Shown: in pieces, positions 43,007 through 56,253 of the stretch
Layout of the letters: every line of letters starts with the position of its first letter
How positions within the stretch are numbered: the stretch's first letter is position 1
Assembly: GCA_947457465.1 (NCBI GenBank)
Contig: CANGWB010000002.1
Location: forward strand, 1-64,000
Length of the DNA: 64,000 nt
Reading direction: 5' to 3'
DNA from: Chitinophagaceae bacterium
GTDB lineage: Bacteria; Bacteroidota; Bacteroidia; Chitinophagales; Chitinophagaceae
Notes under the pieces: model-generated
Database searches by the model: none
Told to the model about the DNA's origin: nothing
The model's input: the letters and a program-made list of their open reading frames with translations, nothing else
Translations under genes and position numbers: made by a program

Positions 43007-44218
43007 TCAGAATAGACGAACCAATGCGTAGATACCGCCGGCCAGCAGGGCACTGATCGGAATGGTCAGTATCCAGGCCCAGACCAGATTGAGTGTTACG
43101 CCCCAGCGCACGGCTGATAAACGCTTGGTGGCTCCTACACCCATGATGGAACCGGTGATGGTATGCGTGGTGGAGACGGGGATTTTCATCGCCTCCGTAA
43201 TGAAGAGTGTGAGTGCACCCGCTGTTTCTGCAGCAACCCCTTCAAAGGGAGTTACTTTGGTGATTCGGGTACCCATGGTTTTTACGATCTTCCATCCGCC
43301 GCTCATGGTACCCAGGCCGATCGCCAAGTAACAGGCAACGGGCACCCAATTAGGCATTTGATCGAATTCAGTTATACTACCACCGGCGATGAGTGCTGCG
43401 GTGATGATCCCCATTACTTTTTGAGCATCGTTTCCGCCGTGACCAATACTGAAGGCTGCAGAGGAGACCAGCTGTAATTTTTTGAACCATTGATTAGCCC
43501 GGTGGGTGTTCAGCCTGCTGAGATAAAGTGAAAACACGGCCATCACAGTGAGGATGAATGCCAGCAAGATCCACTTGAAATTCTTTGCATAGAACAACAC
43601 CTGAAGTGCGTAAGTTTTATAGTGTATACGCTTGCTGATCACATCTTGATCAGTTTCAAGATTGTTGTACAGGAAGATGGCAACAAAGATCAGGATGCCG
43701 ATCGGTAACAGTTTGGATGTCCAACCTTTCTTGAACGAGTTCAGAAACCAAAGCGACATCATGAACGCCATGATCATACCGATCAGAGGTGCCAACACGA
43801 TAAAACTGGCAGTTTTAAGGATCACAGGGGAATTGACGGCGTTCCAGCCCCCTGCCGCAATGGCTGCACCGGCAAACCCGCCGATCAGCGTATGCGACGA
43901 CGACGAGGGGATACCATACCACCACGTGAGCAGGTTCCAGGCAATGGCCGCGGTGAGTCCGGATAGGATTACCCAAAGCATTTCAGGTTTTGGAATATCG
44001 TTCGGATGAACGGTCTTAGCAACCGTATCTGCTACGCCATGATCTTTAAAAATGAAAAAGGCGACGGAGTTGAAGATCGCGGCCCACAAAACAGCTTGAA
44101 AAGGTGTGAGCACCTTCGTTGACACAACGGTGGCGATAGAATTGGCCGCATCATGAAAGCCGTTGATGTAATCGAATATAAGGGCCAGCGCAATGATGGC
44201 GATCAGCAGCGTGGTCAT
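43007..44218 (-). CDS. PiT-family inorganic phosphate transporter
   Basis: The protein (403 aa) is an inner-membrane phosphate permease with about ten helices. The two inverted PiT signature repeats are visible: DYINGFHDAANSIATVVSTK at the N-terminus and FSIGHGGNDAQKVMGI in the second half, each followed by GIPSSSSHTLIGG and KIPVSTTHTITGSIMG. It imports phosphate (or metal-phosphate) with protons. It lies 5 bp after the DUF47 gene in one operon, the usual partner. It starts the phosphate-related island. Confidence 0.95.
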   Translation of the reverse strand: MTTLLIAIIALALIFDYINGFHDAANSIATVVSTKVLTPFQAVLWAAIFNSVAFFIFKDHGVADTVAKTVHPNDIPKPEMLWVILSGLTAAIAWNLLTWWYGIPSSSSHTLIGGFAGAAIAAGGWNAVNSPVILKTASFIVLAPLIGMIMAFMMSLWFLNSFKKGWTSKLLPIGILIFVAIFLYNNLETDQDVISKRIHYKTYALQVLFYAKNFKWILLAFILTVMAVFSLYLSRLNTHRANQWFKKLQLVSSAAFSIGHGGNDAQKVMGIITAALIAGGSITEFDQMPNWVPVACYLAIGLGTMSGGWKIVKTMGTRITKVTPFEGVAAETAGALTLFITEAMKIPVSTTHTITGSIMGVGATKRLSAVRWGVTLNLVWAWILTIPISALLAGGIYALVRLF

Positions 44219-44223
44219 GTTCC

Positions 44224-44874
44224 TCAGGCGTATTTAATGATGATGGACTCGATCACATTGGCAACATCCTCACATTTATCTGTGGCGATCTCCATTACCT
44301 GATAGATCTCTCTTTTTTTGATTACTTCCTTTGCATCCTCCTCTGTTTCGAACAAGCGCTCAATGCTCATGTCAAAAACATCATCGGCCTGGTTTTCAAT
44401 GCTGTTGATGCGAACCAATGCCTCCGTGATGGAACGCATGTTTTTCATATCGCGTAACTCGATCACCGCCTTGTGGACCTGTTGGCATCCCTGCTCGATG
44501 AGCTCCGAAAACTTATGAATACCTGTTTCATTCGGGTTAACCCGATAGAAATTCATTTTTTTGGCAGATGCGTAAATATAGTCCGCGATATCATCAAGTG
44601 ATGTGGCGAGGTAATGGATATCCTCTCGGTCGAACGGCGTGATAAAATTCCGCCCCAGTTCGGTGAACAGCTGATGGGTCAGGTCGTCGTTTGCATGCTC
44701 CATGTTTTCAATCTGAAGTAAGATGGCAGCTCGCTTATCATAATCCGGTTCTGCAACGAACGTTCTCAATTGCCCCCCCATGGTGAGCACGTTGCTTGCG
44801 ACTTGCTCGAAGAGCTCGTAAAAAATGACGTTTTTGGGAAGAAAGATCTTGAGGATCGATTGTAGGGCAGACAT
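44224..44874 (-). CDS. DUF47 (PhoU-like) regulator of PiT
   Basis: The protein (216 aa) is all-helical and belongs to DUF47/TIGR00153, related to PhoU. Characteristic features are the acidic metal-binding helices ENMEHANDDLTHQLFTELGRNF and FDREDIHYLATSLDDIADYI. These proteins bind metal clusters and are thought to control the PiT transporter encoded beside them. A TACATTTG box lies 19 nt before the ATG. It is divergent from the TonB receptor gene across a long regulatory gap. Confidence 0.92.
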   Translation of the reverse strand: MSALQSILKIFLPKNVIFYELFEQVASNVLTMGGQLRTFVAEPDYDKRAAILLQIENMEHANDDLTHQLFTELGRNFITPFDREDIHYLATSLDDIADYIYASAKKMNFYRVNPNETGIHKFSELIEQGCQQVHKAVIELRDMKNMRSITEALVRINSIENQADDVFDMSIERLFETEEDAKEVIKKREIYQVMEIATDKCEDVANVIESIIIKYA

Positions 44875-45136: not shown

Positions 45137-45156
45137 GTATCCAATTCCAGCCGTGA

Positions 45157-45218
45157 TAACATTGCGGTAACATTTACTTCACGACTACTTAATATTGGCA
45201 TAACACAGCCGTTACACA
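45157..45218 (+). promoter_or_regulatory. Array of 11-bp-spaced direct repeats (Pho-box-like)
   Basis: 7-bp elements start at 45157 (TAACATT), 45168 (TAACATT), 45190 (TAATATT), 45201 (TAACACA) and 45212 (TTACACA), all in one 11-bp register. The missing position 45179 (TCACGAC) is weak. The last element ends 7 bp before CACTTTTG (45226-45233), a -7 box with one mismatch. The array thus covers the -33 region, where PhoB-type activators bind. PhoB and PhoP sites in other phyla are 11-bp direct repeats; assignment here is inferred. Confidence 0.6.
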
Positions 45219-45248
45219 CCAAGCCCACTTTTGTCAAAAGTTGCGAAC

Positions 45249-48035
45249 ATGAAGTGCGGACGGCTACTCGCCATATTGGTTTTATTGTTCTCGACCACTT
45301 TGAGTTTTGGTCAAAATCTCAAACTGGCGGGAAAGATCACCAACTCCAAAAACGAACCCCTCAGTGGCGTATCGATCAAAATTTTGGGATCCAATACCGG
45401 TACTATTACTGACGTTGAGGGTCGTTTTACCCTCAGCCTTTCAATCGGACAAAAATATACCCTGACCCTTTCAGCGGTCGGCTATGAAAACAAAACCATC
45501 GGCGAGGTGGAGGTAAAGGCCGGGCAATACAACGAGCTGAATGTGGTGATGGAAGTAAAAGAGAAAGTGGGCGAAGGAGTGACGATCACCACCAAAGGTT
45601 CCACCGCCCGAAAAGAATCCGTTAATGCCCTGATCACTTTTCAGCGCAACACGAACACCGTTGCTTCGGTTATTGCTGCCGAGACGGTTCGCCGTTCGCC
45701 CGACCGCAACACCGGTGAGGTACTGAAACGTACACCCGGCGCCAGTGTTCAGGAAGGAAAATTCATCATTATCCGCGGACTGGCGGATCGATACAATCAG
45801 GCCATGCTGAACGGTATCCTGCTCACCAGTACCGAACCCGATCGCAAAACCTTCTCCTTCGATCTGATCCCCGCCAACATGATCGATAACCTGATCATCA
45901 ACAAAGCCTTCGTTCCTGAGTATCCGGGTGAGTGGGCAGGCGGACTGATCCAGGTGAACACCAAAGACATTCCTTCCACCAACTCATTCAATGTGCAGGT
46001 AGGAACCGGCTTCAACTCACAGACCATCGGCAATACTTTTTATCGCGATCCAGGTGGTCGATTCGATTGGTTGGGTATCGATGATGGTACACGTAGCCTG
46101 CCTGCCGGTTATACCCGCAAAGCAGAATTTGATACTTCTTCACAAATGACCAAAACTGCTATCGGCAAAACCATGCGTAATGCCTGGGCACCGATCGCCG
46201 GATCAGCTCCTATGAACGTATCCTTCCAAAGCAGCGGAAGTTTTTCTTCGAATGTTTTCGGTAAGCGCATCGGGGGTATCATCGGTGTCAACTATAACAA
46301 AACCAATCGTCGGGTTCTATTGCTCAACCGATCCAACTCGATCTCTAATAATGTTGCTTCGATCAACTCCAACTTTAACGATACCCGCTATCAGCAGGAA
46401 GTTTCAGTGGGTGCCATCGGAAGTCTCGCGTTGCAATTGAACAGCCAAAACCGCATCTCTGTAAAGTCACTCATCAATGTCAACTCCAACAATGCCGTAA
46501 CTCAACGTGAAGGAGATGAATTCAATCGCGATGAGCAGATCCAAGGCTCTGACCTCACCTTCAAGCAAAATACATTCTTCACGACTCAGCTCACGGGTGA
46601 TCACACCATTACCAATCCGCTTAAGTTCCGTTGGTATGGTTCATTTACCATCCTCGATGGATATATTCCTGATCAACGTCGGATCGCCTACTCTCGTCTG
46701 GCCGGAACCTCCGATCCCTACCGACTCCTGATCTCCAACGTACTTTCTCAGCAAAGCGGCAGCCGCATCTTCCAGACCCTGAGTGATTATATCTACACGG
46801 CCGGTGGCGACCTCAGTTACAATTTTGACTGGTTGGGACAAAAACAAACCCTGAAAGGCGGATACATGCTTCAGATCAAGGATCGGTTGTATGATGCCAA
46901 CCTGTTTGCTAATTACCTGACCATCGATAATCCCGGACTCCGTCTATTGCCTGCCGATCGAGTATTCGATCCGATCCACTTCGGAAACGGAACCGATAAT
47001 CTATTTGGATTCGATGCGATTAAAGGACGTACGTTCCGCTACATGGCCAACACCATTCTAAATGGCGGGTTTCTCCAACTCGATAATCAATTCACCAAGA
47101 AGTTGCGGGTGGTATGGGGACTGCGCGTAGAACATTACGACCAATTGGTCGGCAGTGTGAAAACCTGGGACCCACGTCACACTTACTCTAAAGTATTGGA
47201 CTTCCTGCCAGGTTTGAATGCCACGTATAAAGCAAACACCAAGACCAACATCCGTCTCTCTGCCTCACAAACCGTGATCCGTCCCGAGTTACGTGAACTA
47301 GCCTTCCTGAATCTCTATGATTTTGAATTGAATGCCTCTGTTCAAGGGAATCCAAACTTGCTTCGTACGAAGATCGGAAACCTTGATCTGCGGTACGAAC
47401 TCTATCCCCGTGCAGGTGAGGTGTTGACAGTAGGTGCTTTCTTCAAGCGGTTTGATAATCCCATCGAGCAATTGTTCAATGAAGGAGTGGGCGGATCCAG
47501 TACGTTTAGTTATCAAAATGCCAAACGGGCTACCGTTTTCGGAGTTGAGGCTGAATTCAGAAAGAAACTTGACGCTGTTGATGTCTTGAAAAACTTCACC
47601 CTGCAGGCTAACGGTTCCTTGATCAAGAGTCAGGTGAAGGATCTTTCATTGGGTATCGATCGTACGCTGCAGGGCCAATCACCGTATATGATCAACCTGG
47701 GATTGTTATACGATCTCGAGAAAGCTGGATTGACCGCAACGCTTCTTTATAATCGGATCGGTGAGCGGATCTACTTGGTGGGCGATATCAGTGCCGGTTC
47801 CGGATCGCCGGACATCCTGGAAGCGCCTCGTCATCTGGTGGATTTTCAAATGAGCAAAAAAGTATTGAAGAAAAAAGGCGAGTTCCGTTTCAATATCTCT
47901 GATGTATTCAATACTGTTCAATACTTCTACCAGAACGTTGGCACTAAGTACAGTTTCCAAAAAACCACTGATGCCTATCGATTCACGCGTCAAACCGGTA
48001 CCACGTTCAGCTTAACCTTCAACTACACACTCTAA
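45249..48035 (+). CDS. TonB-dependent outer-membrane receptor, candidate phosphate-starvation transporter
   Basis: The protein (928 aa) has a signal peptide (MKCGRLLAILVLLFSTTLSFG), a carboxypeptidase-like regulatory domain (LAGKITNSKNEPLSGVSIKILG...), a plug (TGEVLKRTPGASVQEGKFIIIRGLADRYNQAMLNG) and a beta-barrel ending in Leu (TFSLTFNYTL). It lacks the long SusC signature and no SusD follows. Instead, a beta-helix-type lipoprotein is encoded 29 bp downstream. The track starts at TTG 45231; ATG 45249 gives the proper signal peptide. The Pho-box-like array upstream and the neighbours suggest uptake of phosphate or phosphorylated compounds; this is inferred. Confidence 0.9.
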   Translation: MKCGRLLAILVLLFSTTLSFGQNLKLAGKITNSKNEPLSGVSIKILGSNTGTITDVEGRFTLSLSIGQKYTLTLSAVGYENKTIGEVEVKAGQYNELNVVMEVKEKVGEGVTITTKGSTARKESVNALITFQRNTNTVASVIAAETVRRSPDRNTGEVLKRTPGASVQEGKFIIIRGLADRYNQAMLNGILLTSTEPDRKTFSFDLIPANMIDNLIINKAFVPEYPGEWAGGLIQVNTKDIPSTNSFNVQVGTGFNSQTIGNTFYRDPGGRFDWLGIDDGTRSLPAGYTRKAEFDTSSQMTKTAIGKTMRNAWAPIAGSAPMNVSFQSSGSFSSNVFGKRIGGIIGVNYNKTNRRVLLLNRSNSISNNVASINSNFNDTRYQQEVSVGAIGSLALQLNSQNRISVKSLINVNSNNAVTQREGDEFNRDEQIQGSDLTFKQNTFFTTQLTGDHTITNPLKFRWYGSFTILDGYIPDQRRIAYSRLAGTSDPYRLLISNVLSQQSGSRIFQTLSDYIYTAGGDLSYNFDWLGQKQTLKGGYMLQIKDRLYDANLFANYLTIDNPGLRLLPADRVFDPIHFGNGTDNLFGFDAIKGRTFRYMANTILNGGFLQLDNQFTKKLRVVWGLRVEHYDQLVGSVKTWDPRHTYSKVLDFLPGLNATYKANTKTNIRLSASQTVIRPELRELAFLNLYDFELNASVQGNPNLLRTKIGNLDLRYELYPRAGEVLTVGAFFKRFDNPIEQLFNEGVGGSSTFSYQNAKRATVFGVEAEFRKKLDAVDVLKNFTLQANGSLIKSQVKDLSLGIDRTLQGQSPYMINLGLLYDLEKAGLTATLLYNRIGERIYLVGDISAGSGSPDILEAPRHLVDFQMSKKVLKKKGEFRFNISDVFNTVQYFYQNVGTKYSFQKTTDAYRFTRQTGTTFSLTFNYTL

Positions 48036-48064
48036 TCAACCTTTTTATTGTTAAACACCCCGTT

Positions 48065-49501
48065 ATGAAAAAAACCCTTATTCTGTTATCAGCACTGGCT
48101 ACCCTGGCTTGGACCGGTTGCCGTAAGATCGAGTCGGATGGAGAGATCCAGGTAGTTGTCGTCAGCGGAGGCGGTGGCGGTACAGCTCAAGGAGAGACCA
48201 TCACGCTTCAAGGACGCATCAGCAAGGATACCCTTCTGAAAAAACAAAACACCTACATCCTGAAAGGCTTGGTGTATATGGTGAACAATGCCACCATGAC
48301 CATCGAACCTGGTACTGTTATCAAAGGATCATTCAGTGGCGCAGACGTAGCTGCGTTGGTGATCACACGCGGCGCCAAGATCCAGGCAAATGGTACTGCT
48401 ACTGATCCCATCGTATTTACATCTGCTTCTCCCAATCCTCAATCGGGTGACTGGGGTGGTATCGTCATCTGTGGAAAAGCACCGGTTAATACTAGCTTCA
48501 ACGGTGCTGCGAACACATTCCAAGTGGAAGGTGGTATCGATAATGGCAATGGAGATGGTCTCGCTGGCGGTACAGACGCAGCAGACAATTCCGGTTCTCT
48601 CAAATTTGTGCGCATTGAGTATGCCGGATATGCCTTTCAGCCCGATAAGGAGATTAACAGTTTGACCATGGCTGCCGTAGGAAGCGGAACGACCATTGAA
48701 AACATCCAGGTTTCTTATGCTAAGGATGATGCATATGAGTGGTTCGGCGGTACGGTCAATTGCAAATTCCTGATCGCGTATAAAACCCTGGATGATGATT
48801 TCGATACCGATAATGGGTATAACGGTAAAGTACAATTCGGTCTTGTGATCCGCGATTCACTCTTGGCCGATATCTCTCGCTCCGAAGCCTTCGAAAGTGA
48901 TAACAACTCGGGCGGTACTACTGCTACTCCTAAAACCGCACCGATCTTCAGTAATATCACTGCGATCGGTCCGCGTGCCACACTCACCAATGTAGGAAAT
49001 ACCTTGTTCCGCGGTGGTGCACACATCCGTCGTAATACAGCCATGTCCCTTTTCAATTCGATCATCATGGGATGGCCCATCGGCCTTGAGCTGGATGCCA
49101 CTACAGGTTCATCGGTTGCCCTCAACATGGAAGACAGCTCACTGCGCTTACGCAACGTCACCCTGGCCGGTAACACCGTTGCCATCCGTTTTGCTGGAAC
49201 AGCCGGTGCGACCATCACGAATGATGCCGCCTTTGCCACTTGGTTCAATACTCCATTCTATAATAATGATATCTTGGTGAATGTAGGTGACGCTCGTTTG
49301 ATCCAGCCCTTCAACTACGCTGCCCCAGACCCTACTCCATTTGCCGGTTCGAACGGAAATGCCAGGATCAATACTGGTGGCGGATTTACGGATCCCAAGT
49401 TCAACGGTGATACGTTCTTCGACAAGACCATCACGTTCCGCGGCGGTATCGCTCCGGCCGGTCCGTTGACCAGCTGGTGGAAAGGTTGGACTAAATTCTG
49501 A
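48065..49501 (+). CDS. Outer-membrane lipoprotein with beta-helix-like repeats, partner of the TonB receptor
   Basis: The protein (478 aa) has a lipoprotein signal (LATLAWTGC, Cys at about 19), a glycine-rich linker (VSGGGGGTAQGE) and a body that looks like a right-handed beta-helix. Recurrent segments are MTIEPGTVIKGSFSG, ALVITRGAKIQANGTATDPIVFTS, WGGIVICGKAP, and FVRIEYAGYAF. It carries many Asp/Asn residues (NSGSLKF, DDDFDTDNGYNGKV) that could bind calcium. It ends with WWKGWTKF. It is surely co-transcribed with the receptor and may sit on the cell surface as its ligand-capturing partner in place of SusD. No enzymatic motif is seen. Confidence 0.82.
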   Translation: MKKTLILLSALATLAWTGCRKIESDGEIQVVVVSGGGGGTAQGETITLQGRISKDTLLKKQNTYILKGLVYMVNNATMTIEPGTVIKGSFSGADVAALVITRGAKIQANGTATDPIVFTSASPNPQSGDWGGIVICGKAPVNTSFNGAANTFQVEGGIDNGNGDGLAGGTDAADNSGSLKFVRIEYAGYAFQPDKEINSLTMAAVGSGTTIENIQVSYAKDDAYEWFGGTVNCKFLIAYKTLDDDFDTDNGYNGKVQFGLVIRDSLLADISRSEAFESDNNSGGTTATPKTAPIFSNITAIGPRATLTNVGNTLFRGGAHIRRNTAMSLFNSIIMGWPIGLELDATTGSSVALNMEDSSLRLRNVTLAGNTVAIRFAGTAGATITNDAAFATWFNTPFYNNDILVNVGDARLIQPFNYAAPDPTPFAGSNGNARINTGGGFTDPKFNGDTFFDKTITFRGGIAPAGPLTSWWKGWTKF

Positions 49502-49574: not shown

Positions 49575-51638
49575 ATGAAAGCTAAATTCCTCGCACGAGA
49601 TATCAGTTGGTTAAGTTTCAATGCCCGCGTATTGCAAGAAGCGAATGATCCAAGCATTTCGCTGCAGGATCGTATCCGTTTCATGGGTATCTTCTCCAAC
49701 AACATGGATGAATTCTTTCGCGTTCGAGTGGCTACGTTGAAGCGCATGGTGGAGTGGACCCAGTTGAAAAAAAAGGCTTCATTTGACCGCATCGAGTCGC
49801 CGCAGCAGATATTGGATGAGATTCAGCAGGTTGTTCTTCGTCAGCAAAATGAATTCAATCGGATTTGGGAAAATGTATACCGCGAACTACGTAAGCAGGG
49901 CGTATTTCTGGTTGATGAGAAAAAAATCAATGCTGAACAACGTCGTTTTGTCCGTACATATTTTGAGGATGTGGTCCGTCCGTACATCATTCCGCTCATG
50001 ATCGAAAACATTCCGCAATTTCCTTACCTGCGGGATAAAAGTCTGTATCTCGGCGTGGTGCTTTCCAATAAAAAAGACTCGTACCAGGAGCGATTCTCTG
50101 TCATTGAGATCCCAGCTCGTTCGGTCGGACGTTTCGTGCAATTGCCCTCCAAGCCTGGAACACATTCTATCATGTTGCTGGAAGACTTGATCCGTTCGAA
50201 TCTGCCGGTTTTGTTCACCCACACCAAATATGACCAGTTCGAGGCGAGTGTATTCAAGATCACCAAGGATGCCGAGATCGACATGGATCAGGAGGTAGGT
50301 TTGAATCTGGTAGAAAAATTACAGAAGGGGTTAAAAAGCAGACGTAAAGGAAAACCGGTTCGTTTTATTTACGAGCGGACAATGAATCCTCGTTTGTTAC
50401 AATACCTGATCGACAAACTACAACTCAGTCGAAAGAGCAATATCATCCCGGGCGGACACATCCATCATTTCCGGCATTTCATGGATTTCCCCAAAGTACT
50501 GGCCAACCCGACCCCCCGTCCGTCTCCCTTTCGCCATCCGGCATTAAAAAAGTCACAACTGGTTTCCGAGGTGATTCAGCAGCGCGACGTGATGCTTCAT
50601 TTTCCCTACCACAGTTTCGATCCGGTGATCGATCTGCTTCGGGAAGCGGCCATGGATGACGATGTTTTATCGATTCAGATCACGGCGTATCGACTTGCCT
50701 CTAATTCCAAGGTCATCAATGCGTTGATCAACGCCTCTCGAAATGGGAAGAAAGTGGTTGTTTGTCTGGAACTGAAAGCCCGTTTCGATGAAGAAGCCAA
50801 TCTCGAATGGAAATCCACATTGGAAGAAGAAGGCGTACAAGTATTGGTCGGTATTCCGAATAAAAAGGTGCATGCCAAGCTTTGTTGTATCCGAAAGAGA
50901 AAAGGTAAAAAGGTTATCGCCTATGGTTTTATCTCCACCGGAAACCTGAATGAAAAAACAGCGACGGTTTATGCCGACCATTGTTTGCTGACCGCCTCGC
51001 CTGTTTTGATGGCAGAAGTTGAAAAAGTATTTACCTATCTCGCAGAATGGAGAAACGGGATTGCGCCATTACGTAGTCTGAAGCATTTACTGGCAGCGCC
51101 GACCAATATGCGCCGGAGAATACTCGATCATATTCAGGCGGAGATCCGGCTGGCAAGGAAAGGAAAGCCCGCTGAAATCATCGTGAAACTGAATTCATTG
51201 AGTGATGGGGTGCTGCTGGAAGCGCTGTATAAAGCTGCGCGAGCAGGTGTGCAGGTACACCTGATCATACGGGGGATATTCTGTCAGCAAATCAACGGGG
51301 ATGATATAGACGCACAAGTTCATGCGATCAGCATTGTTGATCAATATTTGGAGCATGCCCGGGTTATGATCTTTTCAAGAGGAGGCGATCCGCTGGTATA
51401 TATCAGCAGTGCAGATTGGATGGTGCGCAACCTGGATCATCGCGTGGAGGTGGCTACACCTGTTTATGATGATCGGATCAAACAGGAACTGATCGACCTC
51501 ATTCGCATTCAGTTGGTCGATAATCAAAAGGCGCGTATTTTGGAGCCCGGTTTAACCAATCGATATGTTTCAGCCGGACGTAAAAAGATACGATCACAGG
51601 AGCAGACCTATGTATTCCTTCGTTCCAAACTTCGCTAA
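49575..51638 (+). CDS. ppk1: Polyphosphate kinase 1
   Basis: The protein (687 aa) makes polyphosphate from ATP reversibly. The N-terminal domain begins ARDISWLSFNARVLQEA and contains FMGIFSNNMDEFFRVRVA. The two catalytic histidines of the phospholipase-D-like domains are visible: H433 in KKVHAKLC (autophosphorylated in the family) and H594 in YLEHARVMIFS. SITAYRLASNSKVINALINA and GFISTGNLNEKTA are also typical. The length is normal. ppx follows without any gap. Confidence 0.97.
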   Translation: MKAKFLARDISWLSFNARVLQEANDPSISLQDRIRFMGIFSNNMDEFFRVRVATLKRMVEWTQLKKKASFDRIESPQQILDEIQQVVLRQQNEFNRIWENVYRELRKQGVFLVDEKKINAEQRRFVRTYFEDVVRPYIIPLMIENIPQFPYLRDKSLYLGVVLSNKKDSYQERFSVIEIPARSVGRFVQLPSKPGTHSIMLLEDLIRSNLPVLFTHTKYDQFEASVFKITKDAEIDMDQEVGLNLVEKLQKGLKSRRKGKPVRFIYERTMNPRLLQYLIDKLQLSRKSNIIPGGHIHHFRHFMDFPKVLANPTPRPSPFRHPALKKSQLVSEVIQQRDVMLHFPYHSFDPVIDLLREAAMDDDVLSIQITAYRLASNSKVINALINASRNGKKVVVCLELKARFDEEANLEWKSTLEEEGVQVLVGIPNKKVHAKLCCIRKRKGKKVIAYGFISTGNLNEKTATVYADHCLLTASPVLMAEVEKVFTYLAEWRNGIAPLRSLKHLLAAPTNMRRRILDHIQAEIRLARKGKPAEIIVKLNSLSDGVLLEALYKAARAGVQVHLIIRGIFCQQINGDDIDAQVHAISIVDQYLEHARVMIFSRGGDPLVYISSADWMVRNLDHRVEVATPVYDDRIKQELIDLIRIQLVDNQKARILEPGLTNRYVSAGRKKIRSQEQTYVFLRSKLR

Positions 51639-52529
51639 ATGATCCTGGCGGCCATTGATATCGGCAGCAATGCTGCTCGTTTACTGATTTCAGAGGTAAC
51701 ATCTATCGGAAAAGAATCTCGCGTCGATCGATTGAATTTTCTTCGTATTCCGCTTCGTTTGGGATTTGACGTATTTGAAAAGGGATACATTGGTGCTCGT
51801 CGTAAGAAAATGCTTATTGACACCATCGATGTGTTCGCTCGTCTGATCAGTATGCACGAAGTGGATCATTATATAGCCTGTGCCACCAGTGCGATGCGCG
51901 ATGCCTCCAACTCGAAGGAGATCATTCGGGAAATACGTCAGCAGACCGGTATCGGCATCGATATCATTTCCGGCGACTTGGAAGCAGAAATAATTTATGA
52001 GAATCATATTGCGGAGCTGCTTGATCCTGGCCATAGCTATCTCTATATCGACGTAGGGGGTGGTAGTACTGAGCTCACCTTCTATCATCAGTCTGAAGTC
52101 GTTTTTCAGCGTTCGTTCAATGTAGGAACGATCCGAATGCTCACCAAGCAGATGGATGATGCGGTTTGGCAAGAGATGAAACAATTTCTTCGAGACTTTG
52201 CCAAGAGCTACAATCAGGTCACGGCCATCGGTTCAGGTGGGAACATCAACAAATTGGCTTCGCTGGTTAATGGTAAATCCGGTAAATCCATTTCAGCTGA
52301 AACCGTACGGGAGATGCACCGAGAGTTGAGTGATCTGACCGTCGAGGAGCGTATGCTTCGATACAAATTGAAACGCGATCGTGCAGACGTCATCGTTCCG
52401 GCCTTGCTGATCTATACCCATCTGATGAAATGGGGCGGTATCGAGGAGATCTATGTACCCAAGATCGGTTTGGCTGATGGGCTGATCCACCATCTTCGTG
52501 AACAGTTGTTGGAAACAGCTAAGCGATGA
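51639..52529 (+). CDS. ppx: Exopolyphosphatase/pppGpp phosphohydrolase family protein
   Basis: The protein (296 aa) is of the Ppx/GppA family, with an actin-like fold. The start ILAAIDIGSNAARLLI and the second phosphate loop YLYIDVGGGSTELTFY are clear, as is ATSAMRDASNSKEI. It has only the two core domains, without the C-terminal HD domains of E. coli Ppx. It should release phosphate from polyphosphate ends or hydrolyse pppGpp. Its ATG follows the ppk TAA directly, so both are coupled. It overlaps the convergent glycosyltransferase gene by 11 bp. Confidence 0.93.
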   Translation: MILAAIDIGSNAARLLISEVTSIGKESRVDRLNFLRIPLRLGFDVFEKGYIGARRKKMLIDTIDVFARLISMHEVDHYIACATSAMRDASNSKEIIREIRQQTGIGIDIISGDLEAEIIYENHIAELLDPGHSYLYIDVGGGSTELTFYHQSEVVFQRSFNVGTIRMLTKQMDDAVWQEMKQFLRDFAKSYNQVTAIGSGGNINKLASLVNGKSGKSISAETVREMHRELSDLTVEERMLRYKLKRDRADVIVPALLIYTHLMKWGGIEEIYVPKIGLADGLIHHLREQLLETAKR

Positions 52530-53568
52530 CACCCACGCCTGTATTGGCGAAGGGATCTTCACCCCTAGTCCTTTGCTGAATTTTGTTACCCTCCGTCATC
52601 ACTTTTCGTATCACAGGCGTAATGCAATCCGAATAATCGCGTTGCACATATTCACCTTGCTGTAACCAATTCAATAACGCGGGTCTTTCTTTTTCACTTA
52701 GTCTGTTCAGGCAACGTACACCCAGCCCTTTCAAGGCAGCCGCGTTGCAGACCTGTTCGTATTGACCTTGTATCGGTACGGCCAGGATCTTCTTTCCTAA
52801 GTGTATGGCTTCGGCAGGCGTCTCAAAACCCGCTCCGCAAATGATGCCATCTGCATGGATCAGGCTTTCATCGAATCGCTTCCGGTCGATCGGAAGAAAA
52901 GTGACGTTGCCGTTCTGTCTGAATGTATTCGTGCTTTTGGAAAAAACTTCGAACCGAGTGCCGGGTAGCGTTCGGAACAGTTGCTCGAGAAAGCTCTCCT
53001 CGTAGGCGGGCAGGTACACGGTGATGTGACCGGATCGGGTAGGCACAGCCTGTATGACCTCTGGCTTGATCACCGGCATGAAAATGTTGGGATGGTAGGA
53101 ATCGAAATGCAGACCGATGTGTTTAGAGGCTTGTACAAAGTGTCGCAATAAAGCCTCCCCATGCCAGGATCGGTTGCGTGGACGGGGGGTCTGCGAATAT
53201 TGGAAACTTGCCTGATGTCCGAAATGAATAGAGGGGGCGCCTTGTAGCTTACAAGCCAATGAAGTGATGAAGTCAAAGTCATTTATGATCAGGTCGTACT
53301 TTTTTACGGGTAACTGTTTGGCATCTCGAATCACCTGTGCGGGATGGGTTTTTCGGATCAGTTGCCAGTAATTCAATCCCCCTTTGTTATTGTAAAATAA
53401 ACTGAGGCCCTTACTTCTGTAAGCGACCGGTCCATCAAAAGGTAAATGACTATTCGATCCGCTGAGGAACACATCCACCTTCCCGTATAATTCCAAGTAA
53501 GGCAGTAGTGTTTGTGCCCGACTTACATGTCCGTTACCGGTCGCCTGTACGGCATATAGGATCTTCAT
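52519..53568 (-). CDS. GT28-like glycosyltransferase (MJ1255-type)
   Basis: The protein (349 aa) has a GT-B fold. The N-terminus MKILYAVQATGNGHVSRAQTLLPYL resembles MurG and MGDG synthases (GT28). The C-terminal nucleotide-sugar site has GIICGAGFETPAEAIHLGKKILAVPIQGQYEQVCNA. No membrane helix is present, so it would act at the inner face of the membrane. It overlaps the upstream phosphoesterase gene by 4 bp, so the two are coupled. Together with that gene it could make a glycolipid from diacylglycerol; alternatively it acts in LPS or another glycan. Confidence 0.82.
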   Translation of the reverse strand: MKILYAVQATGNGHVSRAQTLLPYLELYGKVDVFLSGSNSHLPFDGPVAYRSKGLSLFYNNKGGLNYWQLIRKTHPAQVIRDAKQLPVKKYDLIINDFDFITSLACKLQGAPSIHFGHQASFQYSQTPRPRNRSWHGEALLRHFVQASKHIGLHFDSYHPNIFMPVIKPEVIQAVPTRSGHITVYLPAYEESFLEQLFRTLPGTRFEVFSKSTNTFRQNGNVTFLPIDRKRFDESLIHADGIICGAGFETPAEAIHLGKKILAVPIQGQYEQVCNAAALKGLGVRCLNRLSEKERPALLNWLQQGEYVQRDYSDCITPVIRKVMTEGNKIQQRTRGEDPFANTGVGVIA

Positions 53569-54416
53569 GATGGTATGGGTAATGAGTGAATGTGCATGGA
53601 AACTTCTTCGGTGACGACTTCCACCTCTTTCAATCGGACCGGAAGGGAAACGACGGGCGCGGAGGCAAAATCCTGTTCTTGGTAATGGTACAGACTCCAG
53701 CTACCGTTGGAGTATTCCAACGAGGTGAGGTTCTCGATCCAGTCGCCGCTGTTCATGTAAATGACACTTCCTTTTTCGGTCTCGATCACGCGTTTCTGGG
53801 GCTGGTGGATATGTCCACAGATCACGTATTTATATCCTTTCTCGATCGCTAGTTCAGCTGCCGTTTGTTCAAAATTGTCGATCCAGGCAACCGCTTTCTT
53901 GACGCCGTTCTTCACCTTTTTACTCAAGCTCATTTTAGGTCGGTTGCATTTGACAAGCACCCAGTTGATCAGCCGGTTCAGTAAAATCAACCAGTCATAT
54001 CCGATACCTCCCCATTTGGCGATGAACTTGGCGCTGCCTTTGGTCGTCGCATCGAATACATCGCCGTGAAAGATCCAAGTCATCTGTCCATCGATCTCTA
54101 ATACCAATTTATCCGTCAGCTGAAAGTGACTCAATTGCCAGCCACTGTACCGTCTTAACATTTCATCGTGGTTGCCGGTAATGTATACCACACGTGTTCC
54201 TAACTCAGTCAGGTTCAGAATCTCTTTGATCACCTGCAGATGCGAAGCCGGGAAATAACGTTTACTGAATTGCCAGCCATCGATGATATCCCCGTTCAGG
54301 ATAAGCCATTTGGGACGGATGTGACGCAGGTATTGTACGATCTCTTTTGCATGGCAACCGTAGGTGCCTAAATGCAGATCGGAGAGGACTACTATATCGG
54401 CCTCGCGGTAATTCAT
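53565..54416 (-). CDS. PlcP/LpxH-like metallophosphoesterase
   Basis: The protein (283 aa) is a calcineurin-like phosphoesterase of the group of UDP-2,3-diacylglucosamine hydrolase and PlcP phospholipase C. The two-metal ligands are visible: DLHLG, NGDIIDGW, GNHDE, FHGDVFD and CGHIHQP. The amphipathic stretch LSKKVKNGVKKAVAWIDNFEQTAAELA before the last motif resembles PlcP-type proteins, which degrade phospholipids in phosphate starvation. The start is supported by the 11-bp repeat array upstream and by 4-bp coupling to the glycosyltransferase. LpxH in lipid A synthesis is the main alternative. Confidence 0.82.
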   Translation of the reverse strand: MNYREADIVVLSDLHLGTYGCHAKEIVQYLRHIRPKWLILNGDIIDGWQFSKRYFPASHLQVIKEILNLTELGTRVVYITGNHDEMLRRYSGWQLSHFQLTDKLVLEIDGQMTWIFHGDVFDATTKGSAKFIAKWGGIGYDWLILLNRLINWVLVKCNRPKMSLSKKVKNGVKKAVAWIDNFEQTAAELAIEKGYKYVICGHIHQPQKRVIETEKGSVIYMNSGDWIENLTSLEYSNGSWSLYHYQEQDFASAPVVSLPVRLKEVEVVTEEVSMHIHSLPIPS

Positions 54417-54445
54417 CGGCGGGTGTTTGTCTAAATTCCCAACCG

Positions 54446-54474
54446 AACGTTAAGTGAACGCTACCGAAATCTTA
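54446..54474 (-). promoter_or_regulatory. 11-bp-spaced direct repeats (Pho-box-like) upstream of the PlcP-like gene
   Basis: On the minus strand the 7-bp elements TAAGATT (54474-54468), TAGCGTT (54463-54457) and TAACGTT (54452-54446) follow each other with an exact 11-bp period. A weaker TGGGAAT follows in the same register. They match the TAACATT elements upstream of the TonB receptor. GAATTTAG (54438-54431), a poor -7-like sequence, lies at the same distance (7 bp) as the box at the TonB gene. Confidence 0.58.
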
Positions 54475-54495
54475 TTTTCCTGTTATCAGTACGTA

Positions 54496-55569: not shown

Positions 55570-56253
55570 CTAGTCCCACTCAAACTTATATCCCACACCT
55601 TTCACGGTGGTGATGCAATCGACTCCCATTTTCTGTCGGATCTTGCGAATGTGTACATCGATGGTGCGGTCGCCCACGATCACTTCATTGCCCCAGACCT
55701 GGTTCATGATCTCCTGACGGAGAAAAACACGACCCGGTTTCTGCGCGAGCAAATACAAAAGCTCAAATTCTTTTTTAGCCAGACTGATCTCCTGACTGTC
55801 TATCTCCACGACAAATCGGTCGGGATCGATAGAGAGGTTATTGAAGCGAAGTGCTCGTTCATCGGTTGAAGCCGGCAAACGGCGAAACAGCGCCTGTATG
55901 CGGGTGAGAAAAACTTTTGGGCTGAGCGGTTTGGTCAGGTAATCATCGGCCCCGGTCTCCAATCCCTTGATCTGCGCCAGATCATCACTTATGGCCGTCA
56001 GAAAAATGATCAATGTTTTTTGAAAGGCCGTTTGTGCCCGCAGCCATTGACAGACCTCCACGCCCGTTTTACGCGGCATCATCACATCCAAAACAATCAG
56101 TTCAGGTTGATGCTTGCGTGCTTTCTCCAGTGCTTCATCTCCGTCCTTGGCCGTGATCACTTCATACCCCTCCTGCGTCAGATTATAACGGAGGATCTCC
56201 AGGATATCCGGATCATCGTCGGCGATCAATACTTTTCGGAGCGAAGCGGGCAT
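55570..56253 (-). CDS. PhoB-like OmpR-family response regulator
   Basis: The protein (227 aa) has an N-terminal receiver domain (ADDDPDILEIL, phospho-acceptor Asp in LIVLDVMMPRKTG, Lys in DDYLTKPLSP) and a C-terminal winged helix (SLAKKEFELLYLLAQKPGRVFLRQ, VIVGDRTIDVHIRKIRQKMG). The recognition helix and wing are like those of PhoB/PhoP regulators. Its place in the phosphate island, next to a kinase without a sensing loop, supports PhoB. A TAGGTTTG box lies 13 nt before the ATG. It is the obvious candidate to bind the 11-bp repeats. Confidence 0.88.
   Translation of the reverse strand: MPASLRKVLIADDDPDILEILRYNLTQEGYEVITAKDGDEALEKARKHQPELIVLDVMMPRKTGVEVCQWLRAQTAFQKTLIIFLTAISDDLAQIKGLETGADDYLTKPLSPKVFLTRIQALFRRLPASTDERALRFNNLSIDPDRFVVEIDSQEISLAKKEFELLYLLAQKPGRVFLRQEIMNQVWGNEVIVGDRTIDVHIRKIRQKMGVDCITTVKGVGYKFEWD

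Follow-up and report, generated by a model that had tools for sequence, protein, structure and literature searches.

The PlcP–Agt pair of Pseudomonas aeruginosa was experimentally shown to make glycolipids (PMC8528852). In flavobacteria, PlcP is also known and is expressed at low phosphate in Dokdonia, and the non-phosphorus lipids of Dokdonia MED134 are aminolipids rather than glycolipids (PMC4796936). The phoBR operon of Flavobacterium johnsoniae includes a PF04101 glycosyltransferase (GT), Fjoh_0541, and the species also has an orphan PlcP, Fjoh_4577; both are strongly Pi-induced and were grouped under lipid remodelling (PMC8115612). Earlier work has thus already reported a flavobacterial PlcP and, from the phoBR operon of Flavobacterium, a Pi-induced GT, and the new part of the present analysis is a variant with a different partner enzyme. 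We consider it likely that the locus described here encodes a Pho-regulated module of PlcP and a diacylglycerol glycosyltransferase, as a Bacteroidota variant of PlcP–Agt remodelling.

The window, which is the whole stretch of 64,000 nucleotides that was analysed, lies on contig 2 of a Bacteroidota genome of 2.06 Mb in 46 contigs. It contains a phosphate island in which pit and a DUF47 gene (43007-44874, −) are followed by genes for a TonB receptor and a lipoprotein (45231-49501, +) and by ppk1 and ppx (49575-52529, +). On the strand opposite to ppk1-ppx are phoB, phoR, a plcP-type phosphoesterase gene and a GT gene, in that order, so that the plcP-GT pair is directly downstream of phoB-phoR on the same strand and has ppk1-ppx on its other side. 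The original prediction, which had proposed the phosphoesterase and the GT as a lipid-remodelling pair beside phoRB, was accurate on the arrangement of the genes: both open reading frames and their 4-bp overlap are present, and phoR and phoB are upstream on the same strand. The GT and ppx genes meet tail to tail with an 11-bp overlap of their 3′ ends (52519-52529). The features of the island are as follows.

43007-44218, −: Pit-type phosphate permease; best match PitA NF033774, below cut-off
44224-44874, −: DUF47 / TIGR00153 PhoU-like protein; TIGR00153 match below cut-off
45154-45197, +: array ahead of the TonB-receptor gene, predicted PhoB box, 34.1 bits
45231-48035, +: TonB-dependent receptor of the phosphate cluster; homologues near plcP in several related loci
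48065-49501, +: putative outer-membrane lipoprotein, downstream of the TonB receptor; in related loci its homologue adjoins plcP or phoRB
49575-51638, +: polyphosphate kinase 1 (ppk1); TIGR03705, 690 bits
51639-52529, +: exopolyphosphatase-type Ppx/GppA protein, from profile matches
52519-53568, −: PF13528 / MJ1255-like GT-B glycosyltransferase, 349 aa; PF13528, 94.4 bits; probable diacylglycerol glycosyltransferase
53565-53568, −: ATGA stop/start overlap of plcP and GT, 4 bp; plcP stop at 53565, GT start at 53568
53565-54416, −: plcP-type calcineurin-like phosphoesterase, 283 aa; Pfam Metallophos, tree and motifs; probable phospholipase C on membrane phospholipids
54445-54488, −: predicted PhoB box ahead of plcP, an array of four directly repeated 11-bp units, 20.7 bits
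54496-55545, −: PhoR-like sensor histidine kinase; HisKA and HATPase_c; best NCBIfam names PnpS/PhoR-type, below cut-offs
55570-56253, −: PhoB-like response regulator; best NCBIfam TIGR02154 (PhoB) 223.8 bits and NF053854 216.9 bits, below cut-offs

In a maximum-likelihood tree of 38 proteins, the window phosphoesterase formed one clade with PlcP of Sinorhizobium (S. meliloti) and Pseudomonas (P. aeruginosa) with a support of 100/100. The S. meliloti reference was the homologue whose neighbours are genes for acyl-homoserine-lactone synthase and LuxR, and the P. aeruginosa reference was the homologue preceding a glycosyltransferase, i.e., the PA3219-PA3218 arrangement of a PA3219-type PlcP followed by agt1. 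The genome also encodes a second relative (C1:1424-2143, 30% identity to the window phosphoesterase), which grouped with Bacteroidota LpxH and the long-branched Escherichia coli LpxH (100/100) and is a separate LpxH. The LpxH model TIGR01854 gave 93.7 bits for this protein versus 42.7 bits for the window phosphoesterase, and because neither reached its cut-off of 190, the cut-off alone is not decisive. The window protein resembles LpxH in its calcineurin-like fold and in the intact metal-site residues common to both families (D13, H15, D43, N82, H117, H202, and H204), whereas it is placed in a separate clade and carries the motifs CGHIH, HGDxFD, and GDWxE, which split PlcP from LpxH. In a survey of 198 genomes of the phylum, PlcP-type scores (at least 120 bits) and LpxH-type scores (~60 bits or less) were well apart, the single exception being a fragment of PlcP next to a contig gap.

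The predicted structure of the window PlcP was of moderate confidence (pLDDT 79) and its closest solved structures were LpxH, which is no surprise for a sister family that has no solved member among the listed matches. These structural matches, and the public annotation of its homologues as UDP-2,3-diacylglucosamine diphosphatase, would suit a phosphoesterase that serves as LpxH, alone or as a second copy, in a pair belonging to lipid A or envelope synthesis. Such an assignment is highly improbable in view of the separate LpxH in the genome, the clean 100/100 split of the two clades, the PlcP-specific motifs, and the Pho array and phosphate genes around the pair. On the tree, the motifs and the separate LpxH, we ruled out the LpxH reading of the phosphoesterase, which is, as judged from its sequence, PlcP-type. 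The two sequence-based checks proposed with the original prediction gave a true lpxH elsewhere in the genome and a placement with characterised PlcP outside LpxH; neither of the sequence-level outcomes named beforehand as speaking against it, a phosphoesterase that is the sole LpxH or one that groups within LpxH, was found.

The GT passed the PF13528 (Glyco_trans_1_3) model with 94.4 bits against a cut-off of 25. In this it resembles the MJ1255/VC2487 family: TIGR00661 was its best NCBIfam match and PF13528 was matched by all 48 aligned GT relatives, although its TIGR00661 score of 147.2 bits is below the cut-off of 195.9. The literature searched gave no function for the MJ1255/VC2487 family, with VC2487 mentioned once in passing, and no lipid substrate for any member of the family of the window GT. 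The AlphaFold model of the GT was confident (pLDDT 93.7), and almost all of the 50 best PDB matches shown were GT1-type enzymes, MurG among them, with a probability of 1.00. The TM-scores to these matches were only about 0.5, indicating that the protein is divergent or that its two domains are placed differently. On the basis of the model, the window GT is a GT-B enzyme of the GT1/GT28 type. Sequence searches of the PDB with the GT, as a single sequence or as a profile, gave no useful match, and its likeness to MurG was limited to 56 C-terminal columns (12.6% probability, E 0.0023).

The original prediction had called the enzyme GT28-like, with the fold of MGDG synthases. The first description holds only loosely; the GT28 C-terminal model PF04101 scored 19.6 bits, below its cut-off of 22, against the strong PF13528 match, and 22 of the 48 relatives matched it weakly, at E ≤ 0.01. 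The second is tenable at the level of the fold and no further, as the MGDG-synthase domain PF06925 had no match in the genome. An MGDG synthase of family GT28, with PF06925 and PF04101, was accordingly rejected as a candidate. An Agt homologue was likewise ruled out: homology of the GT to Agt was not detectable (hhalign probability 0.2%), and no Agt was found in the genome, where the best match to Agt1 was a 24.8-bit C-terminal piece elsewhere. That the partner would come from a family other than Agt had been correctly anticipated.

The GT gene was immediately downstream of plcP on the same strand in 45 of the 59 close PlcP matches in the 198 genomes and in 11 of the 16 more distant ones; these genomes are related, and the counts are not independent events. 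A named scan of 80 plcP loci, including Chitinophagaceae, Flavobacteriaceae, Sphingobacteriaceae, and Cytophagales, found this GT near plcP in 60. Culturable relatives with the pair include Sediminibacterium salmoneum (L138) and Flavobacterium micromati (L175). The two genes overlapped or were separated by 30 nt or less in 40 of 53 measured relatives, six of which had the same 4-bp overlap, and in related loci the pair was again found with ppk-ppx, phoB-phoR, pit-DUF47 or pst genes. As far as gene order tells, the plcP-GT pair is conserved and Pho-associated. A divergent pair with a 4-bp overlap (37% and 25% identity) was observed in Parabacteroides distasonis (L008) with no phosphate genes nearby. 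A clearly Bacteroidota pair was also observed on a contig deposited as a Klebsiella pneumoniae MAG (L151), a label that is probably wrong.

The co-occurrence is incomplete. The GT was missing in 10 of 57 genomes with a close PlcP match, and at least two genomes (G002 and G033) had the GT without PlcP. Among the marine flavobacteria tested, Leeuwenhoekiella, Aquimarina, Olleya, Mesonia, Flagellimonas, and Muricauda had an orphan PlcP and no GT, and the GT was unlinked to plcP in Chryseobacterium, Kaistella, Elizabethkingia, and Pedobacter. A GT homologue near uvrD and dxs was widespread in the survey family f16 (L083, L084 and others), which is Chlorobi-like by gene content. This neighbourhood disagrees with what we take to be the locus number of MgdA, the gene with which the homologue might be equated; a search by locus tag turned up nothing relevant, and the reading given here makes no use of the idea. 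MgdA is a galactolipid synthase that exists in Chlorobaculum tepidum (PMC5897459). No PlcP-type match was found in the f16 genomes of the survey, so the GT has other uses.

These homologues without PlcP, in the Chlorobi-like genomes and in G002 and G033, together with the distant relationship to MurG, a GT acting on a polyprenol lipid, would fit a GT whose product, needed during starvation, is a surface glycan or a sugar linked to polyprenol, and which shares nothing with PlcP except regulation. We regard this as improbable, since the stop/start overlaps and the immediate adjacency are kept across several families and the tested marine flavobacteria with orphan PlcP do not have the GT.

The repeats upstream of plcP were modelled by expectation-maximisation with four tandem units on 77 plcP upstream regions of relatives, leaving the window out. 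A period of 11 was clearly preferred, with the core TTAAYATT; it scored 850.8, and none of six alternative periods exceeded 413.9. In the window, the best independent site was the promoter of the TonB receptor and the second-best was the plcP promoter array (54445-54488, −). The Pho-like array of the original prediction is thus real, with four 11-bp units and a score of 20.7 bits, whereas 20 shuffled windows reached 16.8 at most. In a pattern scan of the whole genome, the TonB-receptor array (the best match) and the plcP array were among the four best distinct places; at its loosest setting the scan gave fewer matches than the reversed control, so that the best matches alone were used. From these features we infer that PhoB binds the array, and the TonB-receptor and lipoprotein genes are probably part of the Pho regulon. 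The third array of the scan (C1:310712-310747, L199) is upstream of a gene for a choice-of-anchor I lipoprotein, a homologue of which lies between phoBR and plcP inside the phoBR-plcP cluster of another member of Chitinophagaceae (L131).

Among GT genes that lie away from plcP or are transcribed separately, a strong array was found directly upstream of the operon in L086 (25.0 bits), L227 (22.6 bits, ahead of GH1-GT), and L234 (23.1 bits), and at none of the other such loci examined. In some lineages, then, attachment of the GT to the same regulon is independent of plcP.

In the proposed mechanism, scarcity of phosphate would cause PhoR-PhoB to act on the 11-bp-repeat array and switch on the plcP-GT operon. 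PlcP would then hydrolyse a membrane phospholipid, probably phosphatidylethanolamine, to diacylglycerol and a phosphorylated head group whose phosphate could be reused. The PF13528 GT would move a sugar from a nucleotide sugar onto diacylglycerol, and the resulting phosphorus-free glycolipid would replace the lost phospholipid. GT1 and GT28 enzymes are inverting, and by analogy the product is expected to be a beta-glycoside. We infer the phospholipase activity, the diacylglycerol acceptor and the identity of the sugar from the genes; on the gene context, the GT most likely makes a glycolipid from diacylglycerol.

The acceptor could also be ceramide, in which case PlcP would only free phosphate and diacylglycerol. 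Bacteroidota make sphingolipids, a ceramide galactosyltransferase has been described in Bacteroides (PMC9692976), and phosphate-starved Caulobacter makes glycosphingolipids under PhoB, with Sgt1 and Sgt2 of the PhoB regulon glycosylating ceramide and sparing diacylglycerol (PMC6445935). However, those enzymes belong to another family, GT4, and in most relatives the GT is translationally coupled to, or closely spaced from, an enzyme that releases diacylglycerol, which points to diacylglycerol as the acceptor, so that we consider a ceramide acceptor unlikely.

Remodelling by PlcP and a diacylglycerol-specific GT is favoured by the PlcP clade, the genome's own LpxH, the conserved adjacency of the GT, the period-11 array, the unlinked GTs with arrays of their own, the lack of an Agt or MGDG-synthase homologue in the genome, and the Pi-induction in F. 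johnsoniae. Counted against it are the failure to find a lipid substrate for the GT family, the incomplete co-occurrence of PlcP and GT, the Chlorobi-like GT, and the aminolipids of Dokdonia. The last weighs little, because the related marine flavobacteria tested, the six genera with orphan PlcP listed above, do not have the GT.

A gene for a GH1 protein that scores above the cut-off of TIGR03356, a curated beta-glucosidase model, recurs as a third gene. It directly follows the GT in L082, L086, L123, L128, L138, L181, L188, and L234 and comes before it in L227, and it adjoins the GT in 5 of 14 genomes with a close GH1 homologue (G033, G072, G122, G150, and G182). In some of the GH1-GT lineages the operon is preceded by a strong 11-bp array. 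At the threshold used, no GH1 of that kind was found in the window genome. Since GT1/GT28 enzymes invert, a beta-linked glycolipid and a sugar-removing beta-glucosidase would fit together. We tentatively suggest, as a possibility, a cycle of Bacteroidota's own in which PlcP acts with an inverting PF13528 GT making beta-glycosyl-diacylglycerol, and a GH1 that is co-transcribed in some lineages removes the sugar when phosphate returns. If true, the swap between phospholipid and glycolipid would be reversible, and the window genome would have the PlcP and GT parts of it.

Soils, plants, and oceans are rich in Bacteroidota, and little is known of phosphorus thrift in the membranes of these bacteria. 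The analysis describes a two-gene, promoter-defined module across much of the phylum and names a GT family with no function assigned in the literature searched, which searches by Agt alone would miss. If the reading is true, the public LpxH annotation of such phosphoesterases is wrong in many genomes.

Compared with the PlcP–Agt systems (P. aeruginosa PA3219-PA3218, SAR11, and Methylosinus; PMC8528852, PMC4796936, PMC9239053), the window locus has a phosphoesterase of the same PlcP clade, a downstream glycosyltransferase, and a Pho-box promoter (predicted here), and the 4-bp overlap is also found in the P. aeruginosa record. In contrast, its partner enzyme is of PF13528 and not of Agt/GT4 (hhalign 0.2%), its Pho box is an 11-bp-periodic array with another consensus, and its glycolipid product is predicted from the genes. 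The locus is similar to F. johnsoniae (PMC8115612) in having a GT beside phoBR and a PlcP, with Fjoh_0541 compared through its PF04101 annotation, while Fjoh_0541 and Fjoh_4577 are unlinked and the plcP and GT genes of the window adjoin.
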